DNA of 64,000 nt from Physcomitrium patens (lineage: Eukaryota; Streptophyta; Bryopsida; Funariales; Funariaceae). Where the stretch lies: the NCBI RefSeq assembly GCF_000002425.4, contig NC_037257.1, positions 13,143,232-13,207,231 of the forward strand. Reading direction: 5' to 3'. A program made the position numbers and the translations under genes. Position 1 is the stretch's first letter. Each line of letters opens with the position of its first letter. This document shows, piece by piece, positions 2,133-64,000 of this stretch. The notes under the pieces are model-generated. The model did no database searches. It was given only the letters and a program-made list of their open reading frames with translations, and was not told where the DNA came from.

Positions 2133-2578
2133 TGTCACGGACACAAAATATAGACTTGAAATCTAACAAGAAGTTCAAGAAGAAGTGACAAAACTAGATT
2201 AAACAGATGAGTACAAGAACAACACCAGAAAGGTGAGTTAGAACTCCAAGAGGTGTGTTGTCGAGACTGAAGAACTCTTCAGCCTCGATCCCTATATATA
2301 CTCCTACTTAGGAAGCTTCTCGAGCTACTTCTATTAACTAGGAAGCTTCTAGAAGGTTCCAGAGGCTTCCTTTCTAGAAGGTTCTAGAAACTTCTCGAGC
2401 TACTTCTATTAACTAAAAAGCTTCTAGAAAGTTCTAAGGGCTTCCTTTCTAGAAGCTTCTAGAAACTTCTTTTCTATAAGGTTCCAGAGACTTCCTTTCT
2501 AGAAGCTTCTAGAAACTTCTCTCTAAAAGGTTCCAGAGGCTTCTCTTCTAGAAAGTTCTAAGGAATATGTTCCTAACA
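2133..2578 (-). repeat. 3' LTR of the minus-strand chromovirus
   Basis: 446 bp, running in element sense from TGTTAGGAACAT at 2578 to GTCCGTGACA at 2133. It is nearly identical to 7876-8321. U3 (about 2300-2578) is dense in TTCTAGAA-type repeats. A TATATATA box lies at 2293-2300, and the predicted start of R lies near 2269. Confidence 0.95.
2342..2569 (-). promoter_or_regulatory. Array of heat-shock elements in U3 of the 3' LTR
   Basis: Heat-shock factor binds contiguous alternating nGAAn/nTTCn units. Three blocks of five perfect alternating units, built on TTCTAGAAGCTTCTAGAA, lie at 2372-2394, 2447-2469 and 2497-2519. A further block lies at 2342-2360, with shorter three-unit sites between and after them. 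The array sits directly upstream (element sense) of the TATA box at 2293-2300. The sites are seen in the sequence; heat response is inferred from the known specificity of heat-shock factor. Confidence 0.75.
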
Positions 2579-2592
2579 TCACCCCCTCCTTT
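2579..2592 (-). promoter_or_regulatory. Polypurine tract of the minus-strand chromovirus
   Basis: On the minus strand the sequence AAAGGAGGGGGTGA abuts the 3' LTR start, the position where plus-strand DNA synthesis is primed. The outer plus-strand relic has the same tract at 8667-8680 beside its own 3' LTR. Confidence 0.85.
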
Positions 2593-3109: not shown

Positions 3110-4268
3110 TAGGTTTATCAGGATGTCGTTGATGAAACTCCTGTACCTTTTGTGGCGCATTTGCAAGATTTTCAGCTGGCTCCTACGTTCGCTCATTAAT
3201 GTCATAGCCGCACCAATGAACAAGATATTCTAACTTTTTCCACCTTTGTCGTGAATCCAATACCTTTTCAACTTCGTATTCTTCGTGGTTCTCGATTTCA
3301 ATACTAGGTGGCGGATATTGCACTCTTTCAGAAAAAGATGACTCTCGATAAGGTTCCAACAGAGAAACATGAAAGACTGGATGTACCTTCATAGAAGCCG
3401 GTAACTCCAGCCGGTATGCCACTGGATTAATTTGCTTCTGGATGATAAATGGTCCCAATCTTCGATAGTCCAACTTATCACATGGTCGCTTGGTCTTGAT
3501 ATTTCATCGAAGAAGCCAGGCTTTGTCTCCAACTTTGAAAGTAGGTGCTTGATTCCGAAATCTATCTGCAAACGTCTTATAGGATTCTTGAACGGATTGT
3601 AATTGAAGCTTCAACATAGTTTGAAGCTCTCATAGTTGCTTTGCAAATCCTTCACCTACTGGATTGTTATTTGTTGACGGACTCAATAAATCAAGCTCCG
3701 GATGATACCCATAGTTGGAAAAGAATGGTGTTTGTTGAGTCGATGCATGGAGGGTGTTGTTATATGCAAACTCGGCTAGTGGTAGATATGCAGTCCAATC
3801 GTCTTGCTGATAATTGATGCTGCATCGTAAGTACTGCTCCAAGACTTGGTTCACCCGTTTCGTTTGGCCATCAGTTTGAGGATGAAAAGCTGAAGAAAGC
3901 TTGATATCCACCTTCAATATTCCAAAGAGAGATCTCCAAAACTTTGACACGAACTGGGTACCTCGATCTGATATGATATCACCTGGTAGTCCATGATATC
4001 GATACACATTATTGAGAAAGAGTCTTGCTGTAACTTCACTGAACGATGTCTTCTTACAAGGAACAAAGTGTGCCATCTTCGTAAGCCGATCTACCACGAC
4101 AAAGATGCTGTCAAATGAGTTTGATGATGGCAAGTCCGTGATGAAGTCCATAGAAATTGAAGACCATGGTCGACGTGGAATTGGCAATGGCTGTAGAAGT
4201 CCATAAGGGCGATGCCGAGGATTCTTGGATCTTGAACAGATATCACAGGAGAGGACAAAATCTTTCAC
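3110..4268 (-). pseudogene. Integrase and chromodomain of the minus-strand chromovirus
   Basis: An open stretch of 212 residues (4268-3630) holds the CDICSRSKNP end of the zinc finger and the integrase core: MDFITDLP (first Asp), SDRGTQF (second Asp) and HPQTDGQTKRVNQ. The catalytic Glu, usually QTERVNQ, is Lys here. A TGA-type stop then separates the C-terminal domain (3473-3183, [20 protein letters not shown]), which leads into the chromodomain [12 protein letters not shown]...[15 protein letters not shown]. The next codon, normally TGG (Trp), is TAG near 3180. The chromodomain in this group targets integration to modified histones; here it is truncated. Confidence 0.93.
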
Positions 4269-4406
4269 ATCCTTTCACATTTGGGGCCACCAAAAATCTC
4301 GGGAAATAAGCTCCAAGGTCTTGTTGAATCCAAAATGTCCCGCAGCTGGAAAATCATGGCGAGATTGAAGAACTCGGAGTCGTGCTGGTCCTTTTGGAAT
4401 GTACAA

Positions 4407-5849
4407 TTACTCTTCAAAGTATAAAAGATCTTCCTCCACCTTGAACTTGTCGTCATTGGTACGTTGCTTGATATCAATGGCTACTGAATCTTTAATGGTC
4501 ATAGCACGTACCTGGTTTAGGAAGTCAGCATCAAATGATACAATAGTAGCACAAAGTTGAAACCTCTCTCGCTTCAATAACGTTGTACATTGTTGATCAA
4601 ACGTTGCTGCTCCAGCCTTTGGTGCAAGATACGATCTCCTTGATAAAGCATCGGATAATCCTTGCTGCTTTCCAAGTCGATAAGTGATAATAAAATTGAA
4701 TCTAGATAGTGACATATTCCATCGAGCTTGACGCCAATTTAAAACTCGAGCTGACATGAAATACTCCAAACTCTTGTGATCCATATATACGGTCACTCGA
4801 TGTGCAGCTCCTTCAAGAAAGTGACGCCATTCTTCGAAAGAATCCACTATAGCAAGAAGTTTCTTATCGTGGATCTCATAATTGATTTCAGCAGCAGAGA
4901 ACTTCCAAGAATAGAATGCAACTGGATGGAGCTTCTTATCTTCACTCATTTGTGAAAGCACAGCTCCCAAAGCAAAATCTGAAGCATTAGTTTCTAAATA
5001 GAAGGCCTTTATAAAGTCTGGATGTACCAAAATTGGAGCTGTAGTAAATGCTGTCTTCAAATCTTGAAACGCCTTCTCCGCCAAAGGTCCCCATTCCAAC
5101 TTATCCTTGCATGTTAATCGAGTGAGAGGAGCAGCAACTTGAAAATAATTCTTGATGAAGATCCAATAGAAGTTAGCAAAACCAAGAAAGCATTGTACGT
5201 CTCTAACCGTCTTTGGAACCTCCCAAAACATGATTGCTTCTACTTTCTTGCGATCCATCTTCAAACCTTCTATAGTTGCAATGAACCCCAAAAACTCCAT
5301 CTCCGTCTGGTGAAATAAACACTTTTCTAATTTGGCATATAGTCCTCGCTTGCGTAGTTTCTCCAAGACCAAACGAACATGCTTGTCATGCTCTTCCTTA
5401 TTTTTAGAGAATATTAGAATATCGTCCAAGTAGATGACAACAAAATCGTCGAGGTGTTCTCGAAAGATGTCATTCATCATATGTTGGAAAACTGCTGGAG
5501 CATTGGTAAGACCAAAAGGCATGACATTATACTCGAAATGACCATACCTTGTATGGAATGTTGTCTTCCACTCATCTCCTTCCTTCATTCGTACGAGATT
5601 ATAAGCTCCCCTTAGATCAATTTTTGTAAAGATCTTCGCACGTCCAAGTTGTTCTAAGAGACTAGAAATCAAAGGTAATGAGTAACGATTTTTCTTTGTT
5701 ACCTTGTTGAGGCCTCGATAGTGCACACACATCCGTAATGATCCATCTTTCTTCTTCACAAATAAGATGGGTACTCCAGCTGATGATTTTGAATGACGAA
5801 TGAAGTTCTTGGCTAGATTCTCGTCGATGTACTTTTGCAACTCTGCCAA
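4407..5849 (-). CDS. Reverse transcriptase and RNase H of the minus-strand chromovirus
   Basis: The longest open frame in the window, 480 residues. The RT palm begins with [22 protein letters not shown], then KIDLRGAYN with the first catalytic Asp and [10 protein letters not shown] with the intact YLDD box. The thumb follows ([11 protein letters not shown]), then RNase H: YLETNASDFALGAV, IHDKKLLAIVDSF and YMDHKSLEYF. The usual ETDAS of RNase H is ETNAS, so its first catalytic Asp is Asn. The linker ends in GKQQGLSDALSRRSYL. It is part of a longer gag-pol, so the Met is only the first in the open stretch. RT may fold, but RNase H should be inactive. Confidence 0.95.
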   Translation of the reverse strand: MAELQKYIDENLAKNFIRHSKSSAGVPILFVKKKDGSLRMCVHYRGLNKVTKKNRYSLPLISSLLEQLGRAKIFTKIDLRGAYNLVRMKEGDEWKTTFHTRYGHFEYNVMPFGLTNAPAVFQHMMNDIFREHLDDFVVIYLDDILIFSKNKEEHDKHVRLVLEKLRKRGLYAKLEKCLFHQTEMEFLGFIATIEGLKMDRKKVEAIMFWEVPKTVRDVQCFLGFANFYWIFIKNYFQVAAPLTRLTCKDKLEWGPLAEKAFQDLKTAFTTAPILVHPDFIKAFYLETNASDFALGAVLSQMSEDKKLHPVAFYSWKFSAAEINYEIHDKKLLAIVDSFEEWRHFLEGAAHRVTVYMDHKSLEYFMSARVLNWRQARWNMSLSRFNFIITYRLGKQQGLSDALSRRSYLAPKAGAATFDQQCTTLLKRERFQLCATIVSFDADFLNQVRAMTIKDSVAIDIKQRTNDDKFKVEEDLLYFEE

Positions 5850-5900
5850 CTCTATTTGCGATAGATTGTAGATTGGGCCAAAAGGTGGTTGTGCTCCTTC

Positions 5901-6599: not shown

Positions 6600-7597
6600 T
6601 GAACGAATACTCCCCTAGTCTTGACTATGCCTCGATTTTGCTTTTCGGGGCAGTTTCCGACTTTGTAGCCTTCTCCACCGCAATACAAGTATAAATTTTC
6701 TTCCATACGTCACTTTTTTTCTTCTATAATAAGAGATTTGACACGTACCGCATCAATTTGCATGTCTGCTATCTCTGAATGCGAATTCACACTGCTTGCC
6801 AACATAGTTGGAGCATGGCAAATTGAATGTTGTCTTGAGCGTTGGTCTTGGCGACGTTGGAATAGGTGATTATCGCACTTCACAGCTTGGCTAATGGCTT
6901 CATTGAGCATTCGTGGATCAGGAAGAGTTAATAGCAAATCCTTCACATCATCTCTTAAATCCCAATAGAATTGACTCATCAATGCTTCTTCATCCCAATT
7001 GATGTCTCATACTAATTGCCTGAAATTCGAAGCATAGACTGATGTAGAACGCATCCCCTGTCGTAGCCACTGGATCTTTGTTGTAGCCCATCGAACCTTA
7101 TCGTGTTCACCAAATGCTTCCGCAAATGCTTCCAAAAAGGTTTCGAAGTTGTTTAATATGGATGATCGTTTCTCAAACAAAGGAGCAAACCATGATAGGG
7201 CTTGTCCCGTAAGTAAGGTTCCAACAAGCCCAACACGTGACTCCTCCGTTGGATATCGTTTGGGCTGTAAAACTATTATCAAGCTCATTTGATTGACAAA
7301 TCCTCGAAACTTGGAACGTGTTCCATCGAACTTATATGGAAGGCTAACTCGAGGCTCCTTATATTGTAGAACTAGTGGTTCTTGTCGAACCTGAGGTAAA
7401 GTTTTTTATCCAAGTGCAGAAGTTTGAGGCTGGTGCAGTTTAGATTGTGCTATCCCACATACTCCATCATTATGAAGCCTTGCCACCACTCCTTCAATCT
7501 TTGCAGTTCTTTGTAATAATGTAGCCAGGGCATTCATAATAGCATCTAACTTAGACTCCCAACTTTCTGTCATACTAATGTCTTGACCTCCGGCCAT
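6600..7597 (-). pseudogene. gag of the minus-strand chromovirus
   Basis: Starts at MAGGQDISMTESWESKLDAI (7597). Residues about 5-50 look helical (LDAIMNALATLLQRTAKIEGVVARL). The retrotransposon gag core follows: YPTEESRVGLVGTLLTGQALSWFAPLF and FAEAFGEHDKVRWATTKI, then LRDDVKDLLLTLPDPRMLNEAISQAVKCDN. A zinc knuckle near 6690-6640 is degenerate (YCGGEGYKVGNC, with the His replaced by Tyr). In-frame stops fall near 7403 and 7006 and after EEKK near 6709. The same three blocks occur in the relic at 41.1-43.5 kb. Confidence 0.9.
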
Positions 7598-7831: not shown

Positions 7832-7842
7832 AAGAACTAGCT
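7832..7842 (-). other. TATCAGAGC motif, possible displaced tRNA-Met primer site
   Basis: On the minus strand GATATCAGAGC lies 34 nt inside the 5' LTR. It matches the last nine bases of the plant initiator-tRNA primer site TGGTATCAGAGC but lacks the TGG that would pair with the tRNA CCA end, and it is too far from the LTR for standard priming. The relic at 40.8 kb has CATATCAGAGC at the same place. Confidence 0.4.
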
Positions 7843-7861
7843 CTGATATCTCAAGTTAGTG

Positions 7862-7875
7862 CAGTCTCGACAAAC
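7862..7875 (-). promoter_or_regulatory. Putative self-priming primer-binding site
   Basis: Element sense GTTTGTCGAGACTG, starting at the first base after the 5' LTR. Its first 12 pairing bases complement CAGTCTCGACAA at 8012-8001 in the LTR, which is 31 bp below the TATATATA box and therefore at the expected transcript 5' end. Tf1/sushi-type elements prime reverse transcription from their own mRNA 5' end with this geometry. No standard tRNA primer site was recognised at this position. Confidence 0.7.
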
Positions 7876-8321
7876 TGTCACGGACACAAAATATAGACTT
7901 GAAATCTAACAAGAAGTTCAAGAAGAAGTGGCAGAACTAGATTAAATAGATGAGTACAAGAACAACACCAGAAAGGTGAGCTAGAACTCCAAGAGGTGTG
8001 TTGTCGAGACTGAAGAACTCTTCAGCCTCGATCCCTATATATACTCCTACTTAGGAAGCTTCTCGAGCTACTTCTATTAACTAGGAAGCTTCTAGAAGGT
8101 TCCAGAGGCTTCCTTTCTAGAAGGTTCTAGAAACTTCTCGAGCTACTTCTATTAACTAGAAAGCTTCTAGAAAGTTCCAAGGGCTTCCTTTCTAGAAGCT
8201 TCTAGAAACTTCTCTTCTATAAGGTTCCAGAGACTTCATTTCTAGAAGCTTCTAGAAACTTCTCTCTAAAAGGTTCCAAAGGCTTCTCTTCTAGAAAGTT
8301 CTAAGGAATATGTCCCTAATA
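7876..8321 (-). repeat. 5' LTR of the minus-strand chromovirus
   Basis: 446 bp, same length and order as 2133-2578. It has a TATATATA box at 8036-8043 and a predicted transcript start at about 8012 (CAGTCTCGACAA). Heat-shock-element blocks lie upstream in element sense, for example five perfect alternating GAA/TTC units at 8115-8137 and similar blocks near 8190-8212 and 8240-8262. The outer end is TAATA instead of TAACA, a single G-to-A or C-to-T type change. Confidence 0.95.
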
Positions 8322-8680
8322 CCGACTAGCTCATGAAGGCGACCCCCAGATGAAGAACTACCTATACCACAACGACGACGGAGGATATCGAGTAACCGAT
8401 CACTGGTGATTGTATTAGAGATCGAGCCTGCTTACGATGGTCAGCTAGAAGGCGTATTTGTAGGACAGTTTTATAATGAAGACACAGAAGTTCATGCTTG
8501 GTCAGAAGTCAATGGCGTGGGCCACTACCGTTAGCTTCAAGGGCCGATAAACCACTTGCCTCGTGAACAACAATTGGAGTTCATAGCAGACGTTATACGA
8601 CAAATTTTCATTTTCTTGCATTGGTATTGATTAACAACAATTTTGCTTCTCAGAGACCTCGAAGCTAAAGGAGGGGGTGA
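8322..8680 (+). pseudogene. Outer chromovirus relic resumes: terminal ORF remainder and polypurine tract
   Basis: Begins with the right target duplication CCGAC (8322-8326). It continues the terminal ORF begun at 2085, with GHYR near 8520 and the region matching NHLPREQQLEF near 8555, but with several stops and frame shifts. It ends at the polypurine tract AAAGGAGGGGGTGA (8667-8680), directly before TGTTAGGGACAT, the start of the 3' LTR. Confidence 0.85.
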
Positions 8681-8806
8681 TGTTAGGGACATAGTCCTAA
8701 GAACCTTCTAGAGAAAAGTTTCTAAAAACTTCTAGAGAAAAGTTTCTAAAACCTTCTAGAGAAAAATTTTTAGAACCTTCTAGAAGCTTTTAGAAACTTA
8801 TTTGTC
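8681..8806 (+). repeat. Truncated 3' LTR of the outer chromovirus
   Basis: Starts TGTTAGGGACATAG and continues with repeated TTCTAGAGAAAAGTTTCTA units, the outer end of the same LTR family. Similarity stops near 8806, before any TATA box, so about 320 bp are missing. Confidence 0.85.
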
Positions 8807-13083: not shown

Positions 13084-14659
13084 TGTTGTGATGTTACACA
13101 TATAACAAGTGAAAGGGTGAAGAAAATATCATGTTTTGAGGATCTCACTTCAAAAATATTGTAGCAAATTATCTTAGAAAAATAGATATTAGTCAAAGGG
13201 TAGAAAAATTAAAGGTACTAATGCTGCCTATTTACAAATTATGCTTCTATTTACTTTGTAAGGCCATGAATAAGGCAAAACTAGGTAGATAAAAAAATAA
13301 AAGATATAGGCATATGTAGGAAGGAGTTAGGAATGCAAATTAGTAAAAATTACCTCAAGAAGACGAAAGTTGATACCTGAAGAGGACCAATTATGAACCT
13401 GAGTCGAAATCAGACCCCGAAGCACAAAACCATGCTTTGACGGCGACTTAAGGACTCTTTGACAGATTGGATAGTGGAATTTGATAGAAGATTGAATAGG
13501 GTTTCTATAAGTATTTATTTTGGGTGATTTGGAGTTGTTATGACTTTGTAAGAGCTTTGCAAAGTCAAGGTTTGTTTGAGATGACTTGGATTTTATGAAA
13601 TAAAATAGGGTTTATGTTTTGGGTGATTTTAAGAGTTTTGAAGCAAATCTATGGATGAAATTTTGTGAATTTATGGGTATAATTTTTTTCAATACGTGTT
13701 TTGAATTTGAACTCGATCTAACGGTTTAATTTAAGGATATCAAGGTTTAAGTGGGTCAAGGTCTCAGAAAATAGAATTTCAGGTCCAATGAGGTTTTTTA
13801 AGATTTCTTGCAATCTACTAGTTGGATTGGAGTGAAACTTATATGAGAGGATATGAGACTTGTTTTTCTATATATATGAGAATTTTGAGATCAATCGAAG
13901 GGTACTTCTGAGAGATATTGGCTCTGGAAAATTAGCATCAAGATTGGAGATGGAGGCCGATCAATACCCGAGCACATTTTTGAGGTTATCATCAATTTGG
14001 TAACTTCGATCATTATCAATTTTTTTGCACTTGTTTTTAACTTATTTTTTTTAGATGTATGCAAAATTTGAGTTAAGATCAATGGTTAATTCATTAGTTA
14101 TTGAGGTTTAAATCTATTATAAGAATTATTAGGATTTGGTTTAGGGTTTGGTTAGGATTTGGTTTGGGATTTAGGATTTGGATTAGGGCTTGATTTAGGA
14201 TTTAGGATTTGGTTAGGATTTTTTTTAGGATTTAGGATTTGATTAGGATTTGGTTTAAGATTTAGAATTTAATTAGGATTTGATTTAGGATTTAGGATTT
14301 GGATTAGGGTTTGATTTAGGGTTTAAGATTTTATTAGGATTTAAGATTTAATTAGTTTTGGCCTAAATTTTTAATAAAGTTCAATAAGATTTTAACTAGA
14401 ATTAAATTAAGATTGAGTTGAGATATATTTTAGTGATATTTTTGATCCTTCTAATATTTGTTTAAGAATTCTTTTTGTTTCTTTGAAATTACTTTGAGAT
14501 TTTTTTGAATTTGATTAAGCTTGTTTAGCATTATTATGGTCTAGTTAGAGCATTGTTAGTATTCTATTAGAATTAGGATTTTATTATTACAATTTCTATT
14601 CTTCCTTCCACAGCCAAGTGTCCGGAGCATTCTCAAGCAAAACTTCATGTATTACGACA
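13084..14659 (+). mobile_element. S element copy 2, inserted between RNase H and integrase
   Basis: 1576 bp, TGTTGTGATGTTAC at the start and ATTACGACA at the end, flanked by a 4-bp duplication ACGT (13080-13083 and 14660-14663). The 3' signature ACAGCCAAGTGTCCGG is at about 14611. It carries a long tract of degenerate GATTTAGGATTTGG units (about 14120-14350). It splits the pol of minus relic 2, antisense to it. Confidence 0.78.
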
Positions 14660-40441: not shown

Positions 40442-40800
40442 TGTCAAGGACATACATTAGGAAGTTGTAGAAGATTTTAGAAGGTTCTAGAGAAACTTTG
40501 TAGTTTGTAGAAGCTACTTGAGAAGTTTTCAAGCTCGTAGAAGCTACTTGATAAGCTTCCTAACTCGTAAAAGGTGCTTGAGAAGCTTCCTAGTTTGTGA
40601 AAGTTACTTGAAAAGCTTCTTAGCTTGTAATATATATAGGAGCCAAGACTGAGGAGATCCTTAGTGTCGACAACACACGTCTTAGAGCTCTAGCTCACCT
40701 CTTTAGTGTTATTCTTGTACTCATCTGATTAATCTAGTTCTTGCTGATTCTTCTTGAGCTTCTTGTTTAGATTTCCAGTCAGTATTATAAATTCGTGACA
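40442..40800 (+). repeat. 5' LTR of plus-strand chromovirus relic 4
   Basis: 359 bp from TGTCAAGGACATAC to ATTCGTGACA, a shorter and older relative of the 446-bp LTR. TATATATA is at 40631-40638, and the predicted transcript start TAGTGTCGACAA is at 40662, again 31 bp below. Upstream are repeated GTAGAAGCTACTTGAGAAG units, including GAA/TTC motifs such as TTTTAGAAGGTTCTAGAGAAAC. Confidence 0.88.
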
Positions 40801-40814
40801 GTTTGTCGAGACTA
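40801..40814 (+). promoter_or_regulatory. Putative self-priming primer-binding site of relic 4
   Basis: GTTTGTCGAGACTA follows the LTR without a gap. Its complement TAGTCTCGACAA pairs with TAGTGTCGACAA at 40662-40673 with one mismatch. The first base pair has changed on both sides relative to the younger element (C to T at the transcript start and the matching change here). Confidence 0.65.
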
Positions 40815-63680: not shown

Positions 63681-64000
63681 TGTCACGGACACAAAATACA
63701 GACTTGAAATCTAACAAGAAGTTCAAGAAGAAGTGGCAGAACTAGATTAAACAGATGAGTACAAGAACAATACCAGAAAGGTGAGCTAGAACTCCAAGAG
63801 ATGTGTTGTCGAGACTGAAGAATCCTTCAGCCTCGACTCCTATATATACTACTGAATAGGAAGCTTCTCGAGCTACTTCCGCTAACTAGGACGCTTCTCC
63901 AACAACTTCTACTAATTAGGAAACTTCTCGAGCAACTTCCTAGAATCTATCAGAATATTTTAGAACCTTCTAAAAATATTCTAGAACCTTCTAAGAGAAT
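63681..64000 (-). repeat. Chromovirus LTR, cut by the window end
   Basis: TGTCACGGACACAAAATACAGAC at its start matches 2133 and 7876. It includes the TTGTCGAGACTG block (63806-63817), TATATATA (63841-63848, again 31 bp from it) and the GAAGCTTCTCGAGC-type repeats. The first 320 bp are in the window. By orientation it is the inner end of a solo LTR or the 3' LTR of a minus-strand element lying to the right. Confidence 0.92.

Follow-up and report, generated by a model that had tools for sequence, protein, structure and literature searches.

Organization of the Chromovirus in the Window

The window, i.e., the whole stretch of 64,000 nucleotides of Physcomitrium patens DNA analyzed here, contains a chromovirus on the minus strand (8321-2133), which is flanked by the target duplication GTCGG at 8322-8326 and 2128-2132. 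Its two LTRs (8321-7876 and 2578-2133) were mismatched at 11 of 446 positions. The Pfam search detected gag, reverse transcriptase, RNase H, and integrase in the Ty3/gypsy order, as in a chromovirus; the coding region was split over several frames, so autonomous movement of this copy is unlikely. The parts of the element are the following:

7876..8321, minus strand: 5' LTR of the chromovirus, 446 bp, with the end ...GTGACA
7010..7405, minus strand: gag fragment (Pfam Retrotrans_gag, Ty3_capsid, and DUF4939)
4410..5900, minus strand: reverse transcriptase and RNase H in an open frame (Pfam)
3633..4274, minus strand: integrase core fragment (Pfam)
3126..3284, minus strand: chromodomain-like stretch including YLVHW, with a stop inside (by eye)
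2579..2592, minus strand: polypurine-rich tract, AAAGGAGGGGGTGA, adjoining the 3' LTR (read from the sequence)
2133..2578, minus strand: 3' LTR of the same chromovirus, 446 bp, with the TATA at 2300-2293, the hairpin, and the primer block at 2269-2258

Similar chromodomain-like stretches, these ones open, were recognized by eye in seven of the outside loci described below (L002-L008); the window stretch is a candidate for a group I chromodomain with an aromatic cage. Self-comparison of the window also showed an older related chromovirus on the plus strand (1-2131 and 8322-8785), apparently split by the minus-strand insertion, a second older relative spanning 40.4-47.4 kb, and, at 63.7 kb, part of an LTR. 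The last two contribute these features:

40662..40814, plus strand: older relative, with the primer block at 40662-40673, the LTR end at 40800, and the primer site at 40803-40814; 10 of 11 pairs
63806..63848, minus strand: LTR, solo or partial, that has a TATA, a hairpin of 13 bp, and the primer block but is followed by no primer site

Hereafter, M5 and M3 are the 5' and 3' LTRs of the window element, P40 is the 40.4-kb relic, S63 is the 63.7-kb LTR, and L001-L008 are the loci from outside the window.

A Site Next to the LTR Is Complementary to the Predicted 5' End of the RNA

An earlier note on this DNA had proposed a Tf1-like self-priming geometry for this LTR, and the sequences it quoted lie where it placed them: CAGTCTCGACAA (8012-8001) is the exact 12-nt complement of TTGTCGAGACTG (7873-7862). 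The features involved are these:

8036..8043, minus strand: TATATATA box, 31 nt to the primer block
8001..8011, minus strand: predicted self-primer of 11 nt, AGUCUCGACAA, whose first base, A, is the predicted transcript start
7863..7873, minus strand: putative primer-binding site, fully complementary to the 11 nt of the primer (to 12 nt with 7862)

The spacing of 31 between the TATATATA box and the block, also claimed in that note, was the same in the four window LTRs examined, and the predicted start A is placed 32 nt from the first T of the TATA. The note placed the complementary site in the first bases inside the LTR; it is indeed adjacent, but an unpaired spacer of 2 nt, GT (7875-7874), separates it from the LTR end. 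Among 5000 dinucleotide-shuffled LTRs, 1 contained a complement of at least 12 nt to the sequence starting 0-5 nt past the LTR end; around random window points, such a complement turned up in 195 of 40,000 trials, a set that includes AT-rich sequence and natural inverted repeats; both figures cover the complement alone, with the TATA position not counted. When both strands of the window were scanned for the geometry (complement of at least 9 nt after a CA, TATA 27-36 upstream), this site and three AT-rich 9-nt matches were retrieved; the mismatch in the 40.4-kb copy kept it from being picked up. In that relic, the change of the terminal pair on both sides (C-G to T-A) is present as described earlier, but it is outside the 11-nt primer if the start is A 8011, and is thus weak covariation; the single mismatch reported there is a G-G, and it falls within the primer. 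Taken alone, the window evidence for the pairing is suggestive only.

Predicted Primer and Site Covary in Relatives from Outside the Window

A scan of genome contigs with the reverse transcriptase gave eight outside loci. L001, with 88% identity, came from the bin Synechococcales AVDCRST_MAG81, and L002-L008, with 49-75%, from a Trichormus bin. Since these loci encode Ty3/gypsy proteins, they were taken as eukaryotic DNA binned with cyanobacteria. The genus Trichormus includes Trichormus azollae, and we infer an Azolla sample and an Azolla origin for the seven loci; a soil-crust plant is the presumed source of the DNA in the L001 bin. Five of the eight loci (L001, L003, L005, L007, and L008) had an LTR/primer-site junction, and the geometry was kept in all five. 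Together with M5 and P40, these made up the seven junctions scored; L004 and L006 had no such junction in the fetched piece, and L002 had no scored junction.

In L001, the TATATATA box, the primer, and the site were letter-identical to those of the window element, and the box was at the same spacing of 31 nt. This identity was 12/12 in the primer block and 14/14 in the site, and was 65% in the upstream U3, 76% in the remaining R-U5, and 70% in the leader. The other four loci showed different letters in the same arrangement: the primer, AAGGTGAACAA or AAGGCGAACAA, is paired with TTGTTCACCTT or TTGTTCGCCTT, the site is 2 nt past the CA of the LTR, and TATAAATA is found at the same TATA spacing. 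If transcription is taken to begin with the A that lies 32 nt past the first T of the TATA, all seven junctions have an 11-nt primer ending in ACAA.

Primer and site were paired at 11/11 positions in six of the seven junctions and at 10/11 in the P40 relic. The covariation across family members that the earlier note looked to was found, with both sides changed between groups at six of the 11 pairs, and cross-group pairing dropped to 5-7 of 11. Across the seven junctions, no one-sided change that stays paired was observed, only one cell was mismatched, and 98.7% of the cells were paired, versus 79.9% when shuffled and 32-48% when slid. The covariation score was 0.589, versus 0.237 in shuffles. 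Two of the five measures (both-side-changed pairs and further pair types) were not above shuffles because only two sequence groups are present; the covariation is mostly a single split between these groups, plus one T-A to C-G change among the Trichormus-bin loci. Self-primed replication would itself write the primer sequence into the site and could alone keep both matched.

Collectively, the pairing of the junctions at 10-11 of 11 positions, the six covarying pairs, and a tRNA-like motif restricted to two of the seven support the self-priming proposal, and point very probably to a Tf1/sushi-type chromovirus, likely of the Tcn1 clade, whose own RNA serves as the primer of reverse transcription. 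What the sequences show is the pairing, its constant location relative to the TATA and the LTR, and the covariation across elements; the point where transcription starts, the cleavage, and the cDNA are predictions. Transcription from the TATA box would begin at A 8011, and the first 11 nt of the RNA, AGUCUCGACAA, would fold back and pair with their complement, which lies 2 nt in from the LTR end. By analogy with Tf1, the RNase H of the element would cut after nucleotide 11; the freed primer would then be extended across the 2-nt spacer into U5, and the two extra bases would presumably be trimmed at integration. The covariation across divergent elements turns this into a sharp test, with one start, one 11-nt primer, and one cDNA end.

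Folding of the 5' RNA and Competing Explanations

Folding R-U5 together with the primer site as for Tf1, an approach also named in the earlier note, gave the expected helix at some lengths and part of the pretzel, but the outcome was length-dependent and inconsistent. In single-strand folds of M5, the primer:site pair probability was close to 1 when 160 nt were folded, fell to 0.02-0.04 with 180-222 nt, and rose again to about 0.45 with 260 nt and about 0.96 with 300 nt. Single-strand folding was rejected as a proof of priming, since its outcome flips with RNA length. The 5' RNA of the window copy folded somewhat better than shuffles (7 of 200 were as good), and that of the 40.4-kb copy no better (126 of 200). 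Among the duplexes of the three-duplex Tf1 pretzel, the one at the LTR end beat shuffles in L003 (0.002) and L005 (0.01) and was borderline in L007 (0.054); of the seven junctions, M5, P40, L001, and L008 had none at that place. The U5/leader duplex was borderline at best (M5, 0.072; L003, 0.066; P40, 0.108). In L003 and L005, TCCGTGAC beside the LTR end can pair with GTTACGGA just past the primer, which resembles the Tf1 U5 stem. The Rfam search gave 16 weak matches, none of them at the gathering score and mostly in the repetitive U3.

These folds bear on an explanation in which the matched blocks are kept for RNA structure (packaging, dimerization, or translation) and priming occurs by some other route. 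Covariation by itself is blind to function, the Tf1-type three-duplex fold was inconsistently predicted, and the primer:site helix competes with others, all of which leave room for it; we nevertheless regard it as improbable, because the site is 2 nt from the LTR end, where priming must start, its partner is at the expected transcript start, the primer length is 11 nt in seven of seven junctions, and no TGG-type tRNA site was seen at the LTR end.

A second explanation is that a tRNA primes at a displaced or decayed initiator-tRNA site, with the 12-nt match being incidental. The candidate is this motif:

7840..7848, minus strand: TATCAGAGC, located 27 nt from the LTR end and lacking TGG, with a potential pairing partner, CTAGTTCTG, in U5

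The motif resembles the initiator-tRNA primer site, and it is kept in both window copies that have the junction. The earlier note had located it 34 nt away, which the actual distance of 27 nt (7848-7840) corrects, and had rightly described it as devoid of the bases that pair with CCA. It was present in two of the seven junctions, both in the window; the leader's first 60 nt lack it in all five outside relatives, where the self-complement is kept. No TGG was found within 0-5 nt of the LTR end in any of the seven junctions. The motif is explicable as one strand of a U5-leader helix (CTAGTTCTG:CAGAGCTAG), itself borderline. With its distance from the LTR end, its missing TGG, and its absence from all five outside relatives, tRNA priming at TATCAGAGC seems very unlikely. 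Lastly, that the blocks match by chance, or descend from a duplicated or inverted repeat, is barely credible: descent gives LTR families common sequence and matches of at least 12 nt occurred at 195 of 40,000 random points, but the match is kept with different letters in two groups and arose in 1 of 5000 shuffles.

A Conserved Hairpin Joins U3 to the Predicted Primer

Within the self-priming reading, a conserved hairpin in U3, which the earlier note does not mention, raises the question of how an RNA with the primer at both ends picks the right one, a question not encountered in the accessible literature. In the window element, its 5' arm is the following:

8020..8031, minus strand: U3 antisense arm of a 12-bp hairpin (11 Watson-Crick pairs and 1 G-U)

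The 3' arm (8015-8004) contains most of the primer, and the loop is 4 nt long (8019-8016). The hairpin thus straddles the predicted transcript start, with the 5' arm in U3, between the TATA and the primer. Stems of 12-13 uninterrupted pairs, G-U counted, with a 4-nt loop were found in M5, M3, S63, L001, L002 (at its end), L005, L007, and L008; L003 has 11 of 12 pairs and P40 has 9 of 12. Nine LTRs were included in the count; M3, which is identical to M5 here, was left out, as was a degenerate stretch resembling the hairpin where L002 begins. Within elements, the mean was 11.6 of 12 pairs, versus 4.7, with a maximum of 6, in 40 between-group pairings. The longest uninterrupted stem beat shuffles in seven of the nine rows (0-1 of 5000) and less well in P40 (103 of 5000); the uninterrupted stem of L003, at 3, was no better than shuffles (4971 of 5000). 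When about 200 kb were scanned (both strands of the window and the eight loci), 16 stems were detected that had at least 11 bp, a loop of 4 nt, and a G+C content of at least 30%; the eight just downstream of a TATA all belong to these LTRs, three others are opposite-strand occurrences of such LTR stems, and the remaining five were unrelated. Arm, primer, and site change together between groups, and L003 and L005 differ jointly in the three at one position.

As the U3 arm is upstream of the predicted start, it would be in the RNA only at the 3' LTR copy. This suggests, tentatively and as a model that we consider possible but doubtful, that the arm acts as an antisense lock, hiding the 3' copy of the primer until strand transfer, so that the 5' copy alone would be free to anneal and be cut. 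If true, a self-priming element would thereby have an inherent means of distinguishing its two identical ends. The hairpin energy was -18.6 to -22.7 kcal/mol in five of seven cases, versus -12.4 to -16.2 kcal/mol for primer:site; in L003, the two were about equal (-13.9 vs. -14.1), and the P40 hairpin was weaker (-8.9 vs. -12.4). In co-folding, the U3 arm eliminated all pairs between the 3' copy and the site in one of seven cases (M5), reduced them to 3-7 in four, and left 14-15 in L007 and P40. Co-folding therefore agrees with the lock in five of seven cases, and the model is not equally good everywhere. A DNA-binding role of the palindrome is possible, but the letters of the arm differ between groups and G-U pairs occur.

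Leaving the key Tf1 papers aside, the accessible parts of the literature on Tf1 and self-priming contained no description of a U3 arm pairing with the primer; the Tf1 text available does not mention one, a comparison made by description. A conserved hairpin near the priming site, with no tRNA site, is described for the fungal GalEa copia elements as the "Conserved Hairpin Site" (PMC5445492, accessible text). That hairpin is just past the 5' LTR and there is no LTR complement, whereas here it is in the LTR, across the predicted start.

Clade Placement and Comparison with Known and Predicted Self-Priming Elements

In a midpoint-rooted reverse transcriptase tree of 25 chosen rows, the window element grouped with L001, P0002, P0003, and P0005 (100/100), and this group joined rows from animals, fungi, and amoebae, separated from three Asteraceae chromovirus proteins that were the only seed-plant rows (100/100). 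The Trichormus-bin reverse transcriptases fell within the same large group, but a sister relationship to the window group was not supported. The nearest named rows were from Absidia (63% identity) and vertebrates (frog, newt, fish, and lizard; 47-59%), a likeness to fungal and vertebrate Tf1/sushi-type elements that was established by proteins alone. No named moss or lycophyte protein was among the 120 matches listed for the reverse transcriptase, and scans of viral contigs confirmed no relative.

The placement is consistent with the plant Tcn1 clade, for which the accessible text of Neumann et al. 2019 (PMC6317226) gives mosses and club-mosses as hosts; by themselves, the clade and the relatives of the element would point to a non-seed plant. 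An Azolla origin of the Trichormus-bin loci, if correct, would extend that host range to ferns. The same text predicts that most chromoviruses of this plant clade self-prime, and that the TAR copia lineage does so as well, so self-priming here would not be new in kind. The earlier note knew of no case established in a land plant; we found no experimental proof in the accessible literature either, but the prediction of Neumann et al. was already there. Covariation evidence for self-priming in plant Tcn1 was not found in the literature searched, as far as it was accessible. Besides the predicted self-priming, the window element shares with this clade a Tf1/sushi-like reverse transcriptase, a chromodomain-like stretch, and a similar LTR length (440 bp in SM-Tcn1). 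According to the part available of Novikova 2010 (PMC2864245), SM-Tcn1 of Selaginella has neither tRNA priming nor self-priming, unlike the window element, where the complement is present; the likeness to Tcn1 is by description and not by direct sequence comparison. In the literature accessible, plant self-priming is a computer prediction, and the Selaginella Tcn1 is reported without any primer site.

As in Tf1 of S. pombe, also a chromovirus (and Tf2, Tj1, Tosmo1-3, and Tcry1), the predicted RNA 5' end complements a site just inside the 5' LTR. The Tf1 primer has 11 nt and is cut between bases 11 and 12, as stated in the accessible part of a review (PMC7175516), and all seven junctions fit this length. 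Unlike Tf1, whose "pretzel" of three duplexes is described in the text available of PMC10085805, the window element and its relatives show that structure only partly.

Heat-Shock Elements and Other Repeats

The U3 regions of both LTRs of the window element carry arrays of heat-shock elements, another feature that the earlier note does not mention:

8085..8301, minus strand: perfect heat-shock element array in U3 of the 5' LTR, 13 trimers and 7 tetramers in 278 bp (shuffle mean, 0.006)
2342-2558, minus strand: matching array in U3 of the 3' LTR, 13 trimers

These two LTRs hold 26 of all 28 trimers found in the window; another is in the LTR piece of the older element (8773), and the last is in or beside the 63.7-kb LTR (63979). 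Among the other U3 regions, L001 has two trimers, L002, L005, L007, and L008 one each, and L003 and P40 none (L004 and L006 were outside the scan). Judged by its sequence, the array suggests a heat-responsive chromovirus. A heat-shock array in such a chromovirus was not found among the titles listed in the literature search, and a heat-shock element is present in an LTR retrotransposon, the heat-activated copia ONSEN (PMC11656987, accessible text). The comparison is one of regulatory sequence. ONSEN belongs to a different superfamily.

Elsewhere in the window, repeated stretches at 48.8-61.6 kb, with one integrase core match under the Pfam cut-off, are probably another Ty3/gypsy element. The integrase of another window element had 87 matches, none of them carrying an organism name. 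ARAGORN detected no tRNA gene within the window. Degenerate TTTAGGG-like tandem repeats were observed at 14140-14342, and these are reminiscent of plant telomere repeats.
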